Shown piece by piece: positions 24,844-29,802 of a stretch of DNA of 64,000 nucleotides (its first letter is position 1; every line of letters starts with the position of its first letter). A model generated the notes under the pieces. The model was given only the letters and a program-made list of their open reading frames with translations. It searched no databases and was not told where the DNA came from. Source of the stretch: Streptomyces atroolivaceus (GTDB taxonomy: Bacteria; Actinomycetota; Actinomycetes; Streptomycetales; Streptomycetaceae). The stretch is from positions 310,001-374,000 of the forward strand of contig NZ_JNXG01000004.1 of NCBI RefSeq assembly GCF_000717025.1, in the 5' to 3' direction. Made by a program: the position numbers and the translations under genes.

Positions 24844-25113
24844 ATGGCCGTTGCCACAGTCACGACCGAGCCGCTCCACAAGCCGCTGCGGAAGAAGCCG
24901 CTCCCCGCAGGGCGGCCCCGCGAGTGGTACGTCTCCCACAACCGCCGCCTGAAGGCCATGCGCCTGGCGATCGCACTGCTCGACGCGGGGGTGTACCAGC
25001 CGTCGAGCGCCGACAACGCCCGCATCCGCGCGGCGGCGGAACGCCTTGCCATCCACCCGCCGTCCGACGCCACCTGCCGCATGGTCCGTGCTCTGATCCG
25101 CCACGGCCGCTGA
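24844..25113 (+). CDS. Conserved small basic protein, function unknown
   Basis: An 89-residue basic protein (RKKPLPAGRPREWYVSHNRR; LKAMRLAIALLDAGVYQPS). AGGAGG at 24832-24837 sits 6 nt before ATG 24844, an excellent initiation site, and a TAAAAT -10-like element lies at 24793-24798. No known domain is recognised; the Arg/Lys-rich N-terminus and helical body would allow nucleic-acid binding. A strong hairpin follows 7 nt after the stop, so it is probably transcribed alone. Confidence 0.8.
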   Translation: MAVATVTTEPLHKPLRKKPLPAGRPREWYVSHNRRLKAMRLAIALLDAGVYQPSSADNARIRAAAERLAIHPPSDATCRMVRALIRHGR

Positions 25114-25194: not shown

Positions 25195-26001
25195 ATGTCT
25201 CCCGCCGACCTGACCCTCGCGTGCTGGCGCGCCCTGGACACGGCCGCCGCCACGCGCTGCGCGGAGGACGCCGCCCGCCGGGCGGGCGGCCGGCTCCTGG
25301 GGCTGGACACGTCCGCGCACCCGGGCGGTGTCCGGCACCGTGCGGTGATCGAGCGGGCCGGTGAGCGGTACGCCCTCGTCCCCGGCGGAGAGGTGACCGT
25401 CGGCTTCGACGTGGACGCCTGGCAGCCGCTTCCCGAGCAGCTCGGCTCCTACCGCGAGGAGAGCCTCGCCGGAGGCTTCGGGTTCGAGCCGGACCCGCGC
25501 GCGCGTCTCGCTCAGGTGATGACCCCGCCGCGCACGGTCACCCTGCCCACCGTGCTCATGGCGGTCGAGCCCAGGAGGCTCCCCGAAATCCCCTCCCTGG
25601 TCCCCGCGTTGCTCGCCGGGGAGGGCCTGCGGCTGCCCAGCCCGGACGAGTGGGAGCACGCCTGCGGAGCAGGTGCCGGCACGCTGTTCCGCTGGGGTGA
25701 CGGCTTCCCGGCGGACTCGTCCCCCTACGGTGGCGGCACGGGCCCGCACCACCCGCACAACGCCTTCGGGCTGCACATCGCATTCGACGTCTACGACTCC
25801 GCCGAGATGACCTCCGACCCCGGTTCCGTATACGGCGGCGACGGGGGAGAGGCGGTCTGCGGCGGGTACGGAACCCTGCTCGAATGGCTGCCGCTGGCCA
25901 CGGCCAACCGCAACCCGTCCACGGCCGCATTCCTCGACGGGCCGGAGGGCGAGGACGTGTTCGAGGACTTCAACGCGCGCCCCGTCATCGATCTGGACTG
26001 A
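25195..26001 (+). CDS. FGE-sulfatase (SUMF1/EgtB-like) fold protein
   Basis: A 268-residue protein. LRLPSPDEWEHACGAGAG followed by FRWGD at about residues 144-167 is the signature RLPTExEWE...WGD core of the formylglycine-generating-enzyme fold, shared by FGE, EgtB/OvoA and PvdO-like proteins. The upstream part (VPGGEVTVGFDVDAW) matches the usual GGxxxxG entry strand. The copper-binding Cys pair of true FGE and the His triad of EgtB are not obvious, so activity is uncertain. ATG 25195 fits the conserved region. It lies 141 bp before the oxygenase-methyltransferase-acyltransferase genes on the same strand. Confidence 0.75.
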   Translation: MSPADLTLACWRALDTAAATRCAEDAARRAGGRLLGLDTSAHPGGVRHRAVIERAGERYALVPGGEVTVGFDVDAWQPLPEQLGSYREESLAGGFGFEPDPRARLAQVMTPPRTVTLPTVLMAVEPRRLPEIPSLVPALLAGEGLRLPSPDEWEHACGAGAGTLFRWGDGFPADSSPYGGGTGPHHPHNAFGLHIAFDVYDSAEMTSDPGSVYGGDGGEAVCGGYGTLLEWLPLATANRNPSTAAFLDGPEGEDVFEDFNARPVIDLD

Positions 26002-26142: not shown

Positions 26143-27012
26143 ATGAGCACTCTGCAAGCCATCACGCTCGACCAGGTGGTCGACACGGAGCACTACCCGC
26201 TGTCGGACCCCGGAAGCACCGACGCCCGCGCCGTGGTGGCCCGGGCGAGGCAGGAACTGGCCGAGGCCGGCTGCACCGTTCTGCCGGACTTCATCCGGCC
26301 CTCGCTCCACGAGGTCCTGCGACAGGAGTGCGCCGCCATCGCCCCGCAGGCGTACTTCGACGTGGAGACGGTCAACGTCTACAACACCGATGTGGACGCG
26401 GACCTGCCCGAAGACCACCCCGGCCGTCGCACCTTCGAGCGTGGCAACGCCTTCGTCGCCCGCGACCGCATCCCCGGGGCCTCCCTGATCAGCAGGCTCT
26501 ACGCCCACGAGTCGTTCCAGCGCTTCGTCGCCGACTGCTTCGGACTGCCGCGCCTGCACGAGCTCGCCGATCCGCTCTCCGGCCTCGTACTCAACGTCGT
26601 ACGGCCGGGCATGGAGCACCCCTGGCACTTCGACACCAACGAGTACACGGTCAGCATGCTGACCCAGGAAGCGCAGGAGGGCGGCCTGTTCGAGTACTGC
26701 CCGAACATCAGGACCGCCGCCGACGAGCGCTTCGACGACGTGCGGGACGTCCTGGACGGCCGCGGCACACGGCGGCCGGAGCGGCTGCCACTGCGGCCGG
26801 GCGACCTGCAGCTGTTCAAGGGCCGCTACTCGCTGCACCGGGTCAGCCCCGTCCGGGGCGGCCTCGCACGCCACAGCGCGATCTTCGCCTACAGCGAGCG
26901 TCCCGGAGTCGTCGGGAGCGTGGCGCGCACCCGGCAGCTCTTCGGCCGCGTACTGCCGGAACACCTGGCCGCCGAAGGCCGGGCCGTACGGGGGGACCGG
27001 CTCCTGGACTAG
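26143..27012 (+). CDS. Fe(II)/2-oxoglutarate-dependent oxygenase (BesD/HalD/ArpA-like)
   Basis: A 289-residue non-haem iron oxygenase. ATG 26143 follows GGAGAGG. The double-stranded beta helix carries the iron-binding H162-x-D164 (HPWHFDTNEYTVSML) and H232 (SLHRVSPV), with R243 (LARHSAIFAY) for 2-oxoglutarate. GGLFEYCPNIR after the HxD is typical of the family that contains amino-acid halogenases of the BesD type; those have Gly instead of Asp, so the Asp here points to hydroxylation, not halogenation. It starts a three-gene unit, with the methyltransferase 53 bp downstream. The substrate is unknown; free or modified amino acids are usual in the family. Confidence 0.88.
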   Translation: MSTLQAITLDQVVDTEHYPLSDPGSTDARAVVARARQELAEAGCTVLPDFIRPSLHEVLRQECAAIAPQAYFDVETVNVYNTDVDADLPEDHPGRRTFERGNAFVARDRIPGASLISRLYAHESFQRFVADCFGLPRLHELADPLSGLVLNVVRPGMEHPWHFDTNEYTVSMLTQEAQEGGLFEYCPNIRTAADERFDDVRDVLDGRGTRRPERLPLRPGDLQLFKGRYSLHRVSPVRGGLARHSAIFAYSERPGVVGSVARTRQLFGRVLPEHLAAEGRAVRGDRLLD

Positions 27013-27065
27013 GCCCCGGTGAACGGTTCCAGGCACTGCCACGCGCCCCACCGAGGAGAATCCCC

Positions 27066-27872
27066 TTGCGTCTCGACGCGTCCGGAAAAGTCTCGCTGGA
27101 CCACATCTACACCGCACCCGACCCACGCACGTACTTCCAGGTGCTCCGCCCGCTCGGCTACTGCGTCCCCCAGCTGGCCAAGCCCTACTTCGACAAGCTG
27201 ATCAAGGAGTACAGGGAGACGGAGCACGTGGCCGTGCCCAGCGTGCTGGACATCGGCTGCTCCTACGGGATCAACGCCGCCCTGCTCAAGTACGACGCCA
27301 CGATGGACGAGCTGTACGCACGCTACGACGGCAGCGGCCCGGCGACCCGCGCCGGGCTGCTGGAGCGTGACCAGGACCTCTCCCGCTCCCGCAGCCCCGC
27401 GCACGCCCTGCGCTTCACCGGCCTGGACGCCTCCGCCGAAGCCCTGGCCTACGCGCACGAGGCCGGATTCCTCGACGCCACCGTCAACGCCGACCTCGAG
27501 GCGAACGACCCCACGCCCGCGCAGCGCGACCGGCTCGCCGGGACGGACCTGGTGATCTCGACGGGCTGCATCGGCTACGTCACCGAGCGCACCCTCACCC
27601 GCGTCGTCCGCGCGCAGGACGGACGCCTCCCCTGGATGGCGCACTTCGTGCTGCGGATGTTCCCCTTCGACCCCGTCGAGGACGCCCTGGCGGAGCTGGG
27701 CTACCGGACTGCCAGGGTCGACGAGGTCTTCAAGCAGCGGCGCTTCGCCGGACCGCAGGAACAACAGGGCGTCCTGGACAGCCTGGCCGCGGCCGGCGTG
27801 GACGGGAGCGGGCTGGAGGAGGCCGGCTGGCTCTACGCTCAGCTCTACCTCTCCAGGCCGCAGCACCGGTAG
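27066..27872 (+). CDS. Class I SAM-dependent methyltransferase
   Basis: A 268-residue cytosolic enzyme. TTG 27066 is chosen because GAGGAG (27053-27058) lies 7 nt before it and the conserved region begins there. Motif I is SVLDIGCSYGINAALL at about residues 59-74. A second Rossmann acidic position lies in RFTGLDASAEALAYA, and the post-motif DLVISTGCIGYV corresponds to the substrate side. It belongs to a family I know only as uncharacterised methyltransferases. Position between an oxygenase and a choline/carnitine acyltransferase suggests it N-methylates an amine or amino acid, which is inference. Confidence 0.85.
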   Translation: MRLDASGKVSLDHIYTAPDPRTYFQVLRPLGYCVPQLAKPYFDKLIKEYRETEHVAVPSVLDIGCSYGINAALLKYDATMDELYARYDGSGPATRAGLLERDQDLSRSRSPAHALRFTGLDASAEALAYAHEAGFLDATVNADLEANDPTPAQRDRLAGTDLVISTGCIGYVTERTLTRVVRAQDGRLPWMAHFVLRMFPFDPVEDALAELGYRTARVDEVFKQRRFAGPQEQQGVLDSLAAAGVDGSGLEEAGWLYAQLYLSRPQHR

Positions 27873-27923
27873 ACCGCCCCCCTCCGCCCACCGACTCACC
27901 GACTCACCGAGAAGAGAGCCGCA

Positions 27924-29735
27924 TTGAACGTCAGTCAGGAAGCAGCGTCCGGAGCCACCTTCGCCCGTGAGAGCAGCCTTCCGCGCGTGCCGCTGCCTAC
28001 GCTCGAAGCCAGTTGCGAACGGTTCCTCGCCTGGTGCGCGCCCCTGCTGACCGTTGAGGAGCGGGCAGCGACGGAGGCCGAGGTCGCCGCCTTCCTGCGG
28101 CCCGGCGGCCCCGGCCGGACCCTGCACGCGGCGCTGGCGGAGTACGACGCCACGGACGGCGTGCACAGCTGGCTCGACACCTTCTGGCCGTACCGCTACC
28201 TCGGGCGCCGGGACCGGATCGCGCTCAACGCCAACTTCTTCTTCCTGTTCCAGGACACCAGCCAGGGGCAGCTCGACCGGGCGGCCGGGCTCGTCGCGGG
28301 CGCTCTGGACTACAAGCGGCAGCTCGACGAGGGGCTGATCGCGCCGGTGGAGCAGCGTGGCGTGCCCCAGTCGATGGTGCAGAACAAGTACCTCTTCTCC
28401 ACGACCCGTATCCCCGGGGTGCCGCTGGACACCGTGCGCACCCCGTACAGCGAGCAGGCGCCCGGCCCGTCCACGGCCCGGCACATCGTGGTGTTCTTCC
28501 GGGGCACCATGTTCCGGCTGGACGTGCTCGGTACCGACGGCGTCCCGCACAGCCTCGACGAGATCGAGGCCGGGCTGCGTGCCGTCACCAAGGCCGACGT
28601 CCACACGGCCGAGGAGGACAGGGCCGGCCACCTCACCACCCTGGCGCGGGCCGAATGGGCGGCCACCCGCGCGGCCCTCGTCGAGGGCCACCCCGGCAAC
28701 GCCCGGACACTGGACGACATCGAGACCGCCCTCTTCTGCGTCTGCCTGGAGGACTTCGCACCCGAGGACACCCAGGCCGCCTGTGACGAGCTGCTCCACG
28801 GGGACCGCGGCAACCGCTGGTTCGACAAGGCCGTCTCCTTCGTCGTGTACGCGGACGGCCGGGCCGGCATCAACGTCGAGCACTGCGAGCTGGACGGGAC
28901 GACCATCCTCAGCTTCACCGACGCGCTGCTCGGCACTTCGCCGGAGGAGCACTCCCGCCGGTCCGGAGCGCGTTCCCAGGGCGAGCCGGTGCCGCACCCC
29001 CTGGCCTTCGAGCTGGACGCGTCCCTGCGCTCGCGGGTGCGTTCCGCAGCCGAGGAGTTCGCCGCGTACGGGAGGGACACCGCCACCCGCACCGTGTCGT
29101 TCGACGACTTCGGCAGCACGGCCGCCAAGGCGCTCGGAGTGTCCCCGGACGCCTTCGTCCAGGCCGCGTACCAGCTCGCCCACCAGCGGGCCAAGGGCCA
29201 CCTGGGAGCCACGTACGAGTCGATCGCCACCCGCCAGTACCGGCACGGCCGCACCGAGGCCATGCGCGTCGTCACCCCCGAGATGCCGGCCTTCGTCGCG
29301 GCGATGGACGACCCCGCAGCCGACCGCGACACCCGTCGCGCCGCCTTCCGGGCCGCCGCCGCGGCCCATGTGGCGCGGGCGAAGGAGTGCCAGGCGGGCG
29401 AGGCCCCCGAGCAGCACCTCTGGGAACTGGAACTGATCCAGCGCCGCCGCGGCGACGAACTCGGCGTGCGTGAACAGCCCGCGCTGTACCGCTCCCCGGG
29501 CTGGCTCACCATGCGGGACGACTACCTGAGCACGAGCTCGGCGCCGTCCGAGAACATCCAGTACTTCGGCTTCGGCTCCACGAGCAGCCGCTGCATCGGC
29601 GTCGCCTACGTCCTGCTGCCGGACCGCTTCAACCTCTACCTGAGCACCCCGCGCGCGGTGGCGGACCAGATGCACGCCTTCGCGGAACACCTCCACGAGG
29701 CGGTCGCGGAGCTGCGCGGACTGCTGGCGGACTGA
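27924..29735 (+). CDS. Choline/carnitine O-acyltransferase family protein
   Basis: A 603-residue protein, the normal length for the carnitine/choline acyltransferase family, which is mainly eukaryotic. Catalytic H320 lies in GINVEHCELDG, matching the family N-x-EH-x-x-DG motif. The C-terminal YLSTSSAPSENIQ supplies the STS carnitine/choline-binding motif, followed by FGFGSTSS. TTG 27924 follows GAGAAGAGAG. The reaction is transfer of an acyl group from CoA to the hydroxyl of a quaternary ammonium alcohol; acceptor and acyl chain are not known here. It ends the putative operon and faces glnA across a strong terminator. Bacterial members are uncommon. Confidence 0.88.
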   Translation: MNVSQEAASGATFARESSLPRVPLPTLEASCERFLAWCAPLLTVEERAATEAEVAAFLRPGGPGRTLHAALAEYDATDGVHSWLDTFWPYRYLGRRDRIALNANFFFLFQDTSQGQLDRAAGLVAGALDYKRQLDEGLIAPVEQRGVPQSMVQNKYLFSTTRIPGVPLDTVRTPYSEQAPGPSTARHIVVFFRGTMFRLDVLGTDGVPHSLDEIEAGLRAVTKADVHTAEEDRAGHLTTLARAEWAATRAALVEGHPGNARTLDDIETALFCVCLEDFAPEDTQAACDELLHGDRGNRWFDKAVSFVVYADGRAGINVEHCELDGTTILSFTDALLGTSPEEHSRRSGARSQGEPVPHPLAFELDASLRSRVRSAAEEFAAYGRDTATRTVSFDDFGSTAAKALGVSPDAFVQAAYQLAHQRAKGHLGATYESIATRQYRHGRTEAMRVVTPEMPAFVAAMDDPAADRDTRRAAFRAAAAAHVARAKECQAGEAPEQHLWELELIQRRRGDELGVREQPALYRSPGWLTMRDDYLSTSSAPSENIQYFGFGSTSSRCIGVAYVLLPDRFNLYLSTPRAVADQMHAFAEHLHEAVAELRGLLAD

Positions 29736-29763: not shown

Positions 29764-29802
29764 GAAGGGCCGCCGCCCCAAGGTCTGGGGCGGCGGCCCT
29801 TC
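29764..29802. terminator. Bidirectional terminator between the acyltransferase and glnA
   Basis: A perfect 17-bp stem (GAAGGGCCGCCGCCCCA at 29764-29780, complement at 29786-29802) with a 5-nt loop, lying between two converging genes and about 30 nt from each stop. Confidence 0.88.

Follow-up and report, generated by a model that had tools for sequence, protein, structure and literature searches.

An oxygenase, methyltransferase and carnitine-type acyltransferase unit of Actinobacteria and its probable carnitine-like product

What might an Fe(II)/2-oxoglutarate oxygenase (OXY), an S-adenosylmethionine (SAM)-dependent methyltransferase (MT) and a choline/carnitine O-acyltransferase (CAT) make together, when their genes stand side by side in a 64,000-nucleotide stretch of Streptomyces atroolivaceus DNA (hereafter the window)? 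Eukaryotic carnitine biosynthesis, with its trimethyllysine and butyrobetaine hydroxylases, likewise combines SAM methylation with 2-oxoglutarate-dependent hydroxylation, and its product is used by carnitine acyltransferases, enzymes best known from eukaryotes. The original prediction placed the three genes at 26143–29735 and proposed that, as one unit, they may build an acylated carnitine-like compound. All three were located there on the forward strand, and their family assignments were borne out, by Pfam for OXY and CAT and by the predicted fold for MT. The analysis strongly supports a single functional unit, which probably oxygenates, methylates and acylates a single small amine that carries a carboxylic acid; the result would be a carnitine-like ester.

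Conservation of the three genes as a unit

In a one-genome-per-species collection, 269 stretches encode CAT relatives, and the locus counts given here refer to the best 80 of these, in which the trio genes were mapped by tblastn. In 79 of the 80, OXY is found next to CAT on its upstream side, the exception (L070) being a contig that starts 71 bases before CAT, and MT stands between the two in 68, one of which (L006) is disrupted. Among the genera represented at these loci are Streptomyces, Actinomadura, Nocardia, Saccharopolyspora, Amycolatopsis and Frankia. The gap between MT and CAT has a median of -4 bp and is negative in 36 of 69 cases, the window included, these values being approximate as the starts were chosen by script; two of the negative cases are fusions, in L048 (S. 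specialis) and L052 (Candidatus Frankia californiensis), where MT and CAT form one uninterrupted frame (902 and 904 amino acids). Across 66 loci, the pairwise distances of OXY, MT and CAT correlate at ~0.90–0.92, which fits co-inheritance, the comparison being among the trio proteins alone.

Co-occurrence was followed in 148 genomes of the class, 121 Streptomyces genomes (the window's own genome being in both samples) and 14 controls. In the class sample, where at most 16–17 candidates per genome were scored in the OXY and MT searches, the acyltransferase family PF00755 was found in 13 genomes, OXY in 12 and MT in 13; CAT adjoins OXY in all 12 OXY genomes, with MT between them in 11. Sixteen of the Streptomyces genomes have a PF00755 protein, 15 above 500 bits and one divergent, and every one of the 15 adjoins an OXY-type match to the HalD family (PF23169), with an MT orthologue between in 12. 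OXY and the trio-type CAT coincide in all carriers of both samples (12/12 and 15/15), the trio being patchy within the genus (15 of 121). No PF00755 or PF23169 match was found in the 14 controls. The sampled genomes also include exceptions to the unit: the CATs of G081 and G225 are divergent and have no OXY with them, G131 carries only a distant MT, and G265 has an MT orthologue but no match to OXY or CAT. The window's own genome holds a single PF00755 gene, a single OXY match and a single MT match. The claim that these genes are one unit is thus backed by the recurrence of the trio in several genera, by its co-occurrence, by the short distances between its genes and by the fusion of MT to CAT.

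Active sites of the three enzymes

OXY matches HalD at 53.6 bits, against a curated cut-off of 26, and is a member of that family, which acts oxidatively on free amino acids and includes radical halogenases and a BesD-like lysine hydroxylase; no other Pfam family matched at E 0.01. The hydroxylases of the eukaryotic carnitine pathway have their own Pfam family, of TauD type, to which OXY does not belong. Within the HalD/BesD family, trio OXY proteins score 52–54 bits, whereas non-trio Streptomyces members score 137–339. The predicted structure has the fold of the solved HalD and BesD enzymes, the closest being those acting on lysine and ornithine; a single-sequence search of PDB chains gave no match at E 0.001, and a profile search of PDB chain sequences gave nothing significant (best E 0.019). 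The hydroxylase-type iron triad (H162, D164, H232) and the 2-oxoglutarate-binding R243, which had been read correctly from the outset, are invariant in all 80 aligned OXY proteins. A HalD-type halogenase is ruled out by the HxD motif, found in 80 of 80 in place of the halogenase HxG, which has no carboxylate ligand. Two other Streptomyces loci, L107 (G192) and L109 (G213), encode HalD-family proteins with HxG that are candidate radical halogenases.

PMC13244439 assigns roles to further residues of HalD/BesD enzymes, namely an Arg and a His that bind the substrate carboxylate, with a Trp also named, and three acids that bind its ammonium group. By these assignments, OXY keeps the carboxylate binders (Arg in 77 of 80 rows, His in 80), whereas the two acids that could be mapped are replaced, one by Ser or Ala in 80 of 80 and the other by Thr in 79. 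The Asn near succinate is also replaced, in 79 or 80 of the 80 rows. These residues suggest a carboxylate as the substrate of OXY. Hydroxylation of free lysine or ornithine in the manner of BesD is downgraded, because the two ammonium-binding acids are gone.

CAT covers the full PF00755 domain (540.7 bits; model positions 1–574 of 574). In an alignment of 82 rows, in which the window's own gene is present twice (once as L001), H320 and S536-T537-S538, the catalytic His and STS motif first noted in this 603-residue protein, are invariant, marking it as an acyltransferase. It shares these features with carnitine acetyltransferase, CPT2 and choline acetyltransferase, and comparison with carnitine acetyltransferase (1nm8, 1t7q) and CPT2 entries found the carnitine site retained at its Tyr, Thr and Phe columns in 82 of 82 rows, the Phe being presumably the aromatic residue at the trimethylammonium site. 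It differs from carnitine acetyltransferase in being bacterial, in being tied genomically to an oxygenase and a methyltransferase, and in having Gln (Q497) in 82 of 82 rows at the column of an Arg which we take to bind the carboxylate of carnitine; two divergent actinobacterial CATs keep the Arg. Since Gln replaces this Arg while the other site columns are kept, the acceptor would resemble carnitine but differ around the carboxylate, and ordinary carnitine is unlikely. F548 is invariant as well; in this column carnitine acetyltransferase has Met and CPT2 has Gly. This position is presumably the gate of the acyl tunnel, which a bulky Phe should close to long chains, and a short-chain donor of acetyl or propionyl size is therefore suggested.

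The identity of MT is carried by its predicted structure (pLDDT 90.8), which has the class I SAM methyltransferase fold; two Pfam methyltransferase models matched, both under their cut-offs, and PDB chain sequences gave no significant relative. The structural matches listed are mostly SAM methyltransferases, with moderate Foldseek TM-scores, and the best two are C-methyltransferases, tied with the N-methyltransferase TylM1. On the present reading, MT would methylate nitrogen, taking an amine towards a betaine. NCBIfam gave no match at E 0.01 for OXY, MT or CAT.

A proposed route and its rivals

Taken as a whole, the trio is best explained as three enzymes dedicated to one product, a hydroxylated, N-methylated carboxylate esterified with a short acyl chain, a reading to which we give an even chance. 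The substrate would be a small molecule bearing a carboxylate and an amine; MT would methylate the amine, OXY would place a hydroxyl on a nearby C–H, and CAT would esterify that hydroxyl with a short acyl group taken from coenzyme A (CoA). The resulting ester would resemble an acylcarnitine, its acceptor being a hydroxylated, N-methylated amino acid or betaine that is probably not carnitine itself. There is a slight preference for an order that begins with MT, since OXY and CAT remain paired at loci without MT, and since OXY is without the two ammonium-binding acids. The carnitine-like acceptor first envisaged thus fits the fold and carboxylate binders of OXY and the carnitine-site residues of CAT, but the change of Arg to Gln makes ordinary carnitine improbable in that role.

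Two observations weigh against a simple version of this idea: CAT is without the Arg presumed to bind the carboxylate of carnitine, and 11 of the 79 informative loci have no MT, ten in Streptomyces and one in Amycolatopsis. A search of the 11 gaps between OXY and CAT found a short MT remnant in L027 (E 6e-4). Genome G017, which retains a single OXY and a single MT but two CATs, has an MT remnant at its OXY-CAT locus (E 1e-5) and an intact MT beside the second CAT elsewhere. Because these remnants persist, MT was lost secondarily, at least in L027 and G017. Paralogues ~40–46% identical to MT occur in 27 of the 121 sampled Streptomyces and, outside the locus, in all ten MT-less Streptomyces; a search at E 0.001 found none in the single Amycolatopsis that lacks MT (0/1). 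Within the genus sample, they are present in 3 of 3 MT-less genomes, 1 of 12 with MT in place and 23 of 106 without the trio, an association with a naive p of ~0.01 that is confounded by relatedness. That these paralogues substitute for the lost MT is only a hint, because trio-free genomes carry them too, relatedness confounds the comparison, and the four inspected paralogue loci (Table 1) are without OXY or CAT. In two of these four, L131 and L134, the paralogue lies inside a conserved block with genes that by eye resemble xanthine dehydrogenase.

The MT-less loci count in favour of a rival in which the hydroxylated acceptor of CAT is something other than a quaternary amine and MT is an optional O- or C-methyltransferase for tailoring it, and the two C-methyltransferases heading the structural matches point the same way, even with TylM1 tied. 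Set against these are the presumed trimethylammonium-site Phe, invariant in CAT, the MT-CAT fusions and overlaps, the placing of remnant and intact MT in G017, and the paralogues of all ten checked MT-less Streptomyces (found in trio-free genomes as well); this rival seems doubtful. Basic amino acids offer another possibility, whereby OXY would hydroxylate free lysine or ornithine, MT trimethylate the distal amine and CAT acylate the hydroxyl, with a product such as acyl 4-hydroxy-trimethylornithine, which is carnitine plus an alpha-amino carbon. The nearest solved structures to OXY and the OXY-MT-CAT gene order agree with it, and the Arg loss in CAT would be accounted for if carboxylate and hydroxyl stood further apart than in carnitine. 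The replaced acids and Asn of OXY speak against it, as does the position of MT, which would be the middle step, so that its loss at 11 loci would break the chain; on balance, it is rather unlikely.

A true carnitine pathway would need exactly three steps from 4-aminobutyrate (GABA), with MT yielding gamma-butyrobetaine by trimethylation, OXY carnitine and CAT acylcarnitines. The retained carboxylate binders of OXY, together with the loss of its two ammonium-binding acids, would be in keeping with a trimethylammonium substrate, and in CAT the Tyr, Thr and Phe of the carnitine site are in place. However, CAT has Gln throughout for the presumed carboxylate-binding Arg, which the two divergent actinobacterial CATs retain, and OXY belongs to HalD, not to the butyrobetaine hydroxylase family of eukaryotes, leaving this pathway distinctly improbable. 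The trio unit also differs from eukaryotic carnitine biosynthesis in having no aldolase or dehydrogenase. Because of the co-occurrence and the fusions, we reject the view that CAT is a carnitine or choline acyltransferase of the ordinary kind whose neighbours have nothing to do with it. Proximity through chance or shared ancestry would draw on the flanking genes, which are likewise common to loci within one genus, but it is strongly disfavoured, to the point of being barely credible, by an arrangement fixed across genera for the trio alone, by the fusions, and by the coincidence of OXY and trio-type CAT in all carriers.

The original prediction was aware of no described bacterial pathway with this trio, and a literature search of titles and abstract beginnings among open PMC papers found no description of one. 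If OXY and MT make the acceptor of CAT, as is likely, the recurrence of the trio would indicate that Actinobacteria have a class of acylated betaines that has gone unrecognised, along with new specificities of hydroxylase and acyltransferase. A speculative extension, which we consider unlikely, is that Actinobacteria turn an amino acid into a carnitine surrogate of their own and load it by a dedicated short-chain acyltransferase, as a bacterial counterpart of the carnitine/acylcarnitine system that buffers acyl groups. The abstract of PMC8085414 states that carnitine synthesis has not been observed in prokaryotes.

Flanking features and divergent acyltransferases

The positions of the trio and of other features are collected in Table 1. 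The TTG start codon of MT lies just 3' of the stretch GAGGAGAA. Beyond CAT, a convergent gene was taken by eye for a glutamine synthetase, and the inverted repeat between the two is likely to mark the end of the unit; scans for promoter-like sequences and T-run terminators detected nothing. Upstream, a gene resembling formylglycine-generating enzyme (FGE) scores 18.6 bits for that domain, under the cut-off of 23.3. It was excluded from the unit because it is rare (at this place in just 4 of 80 loci), as was an 89-amino-acid open reading frame (ORF) because it is confined to Streptomyces loci.

Table 1. Positions of the trio, its flanking features and the inspected MT paralogues (window coordinates unless a locus is named).
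Feature	Position	Strand	Remarks
OXY, HalD/BesD-fold Fe(II)/2-oxoglutarate oxygenase	26143-27012	+	289 aa, ATG start
MT, class I SAM-dependent methyltransferase	27066-27872	+	268 aa, TTG start
CAT, choline/carnitine O-acyltransferase	27924-29735	+	603 aa, TTG start
Perfect 17-bp inverted repeat	arms 29764-29780, 29786-29802	.	between CAT and convergent gene
FGE-like gene	25195-26001		
ORF	24844-25113		89 aa
Inspected MT paralogues	L131:8100-8963, L132:7673-8539, L133:8090-8782, L134:7599-8465		

Clustering of the predicted genes within 10 kb of the loci revealed no additional family whose position is constant from genus to genus, with a simple gene finder that may miss genes (in the window, an overlapping ORF displaced MT). 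The most widespread of the others, a family taken by eye for Ser/Thr kinases, occurs at 30 loci (24 outside Streptomyces), yet on either strand and in shifting places, and was rejected as a member. A few more large families, an ABC ATPase and an AMP-ligase-like protein among them, are present in 6–13 loci, and the remaining listed families are found either only in Streptomyces loci or only outside them.

In the region L130:3205-10204 of G081, the divergent CAT, with Arg at the carnitine-carboxylate column, adjoins what appears by eye to be a peptide-type ABC transporter operon, and is possibly concerned with carnitine-related uptake and use. That of G225 lies in an apparent biosynthetic cluster (L135:4397-12169) with, by eye, an FAD-dependent halogenase-like protein, a non-ribosomal peptide synthetase-like protein, a class III aminotransferase and a methyltransferase, and has an MT paralogue ~5 kb downstream (L135:16543-17412). 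From this cluster and its nearby paralogue, it follows that bacterial CATs may serve more than one natural-product route.
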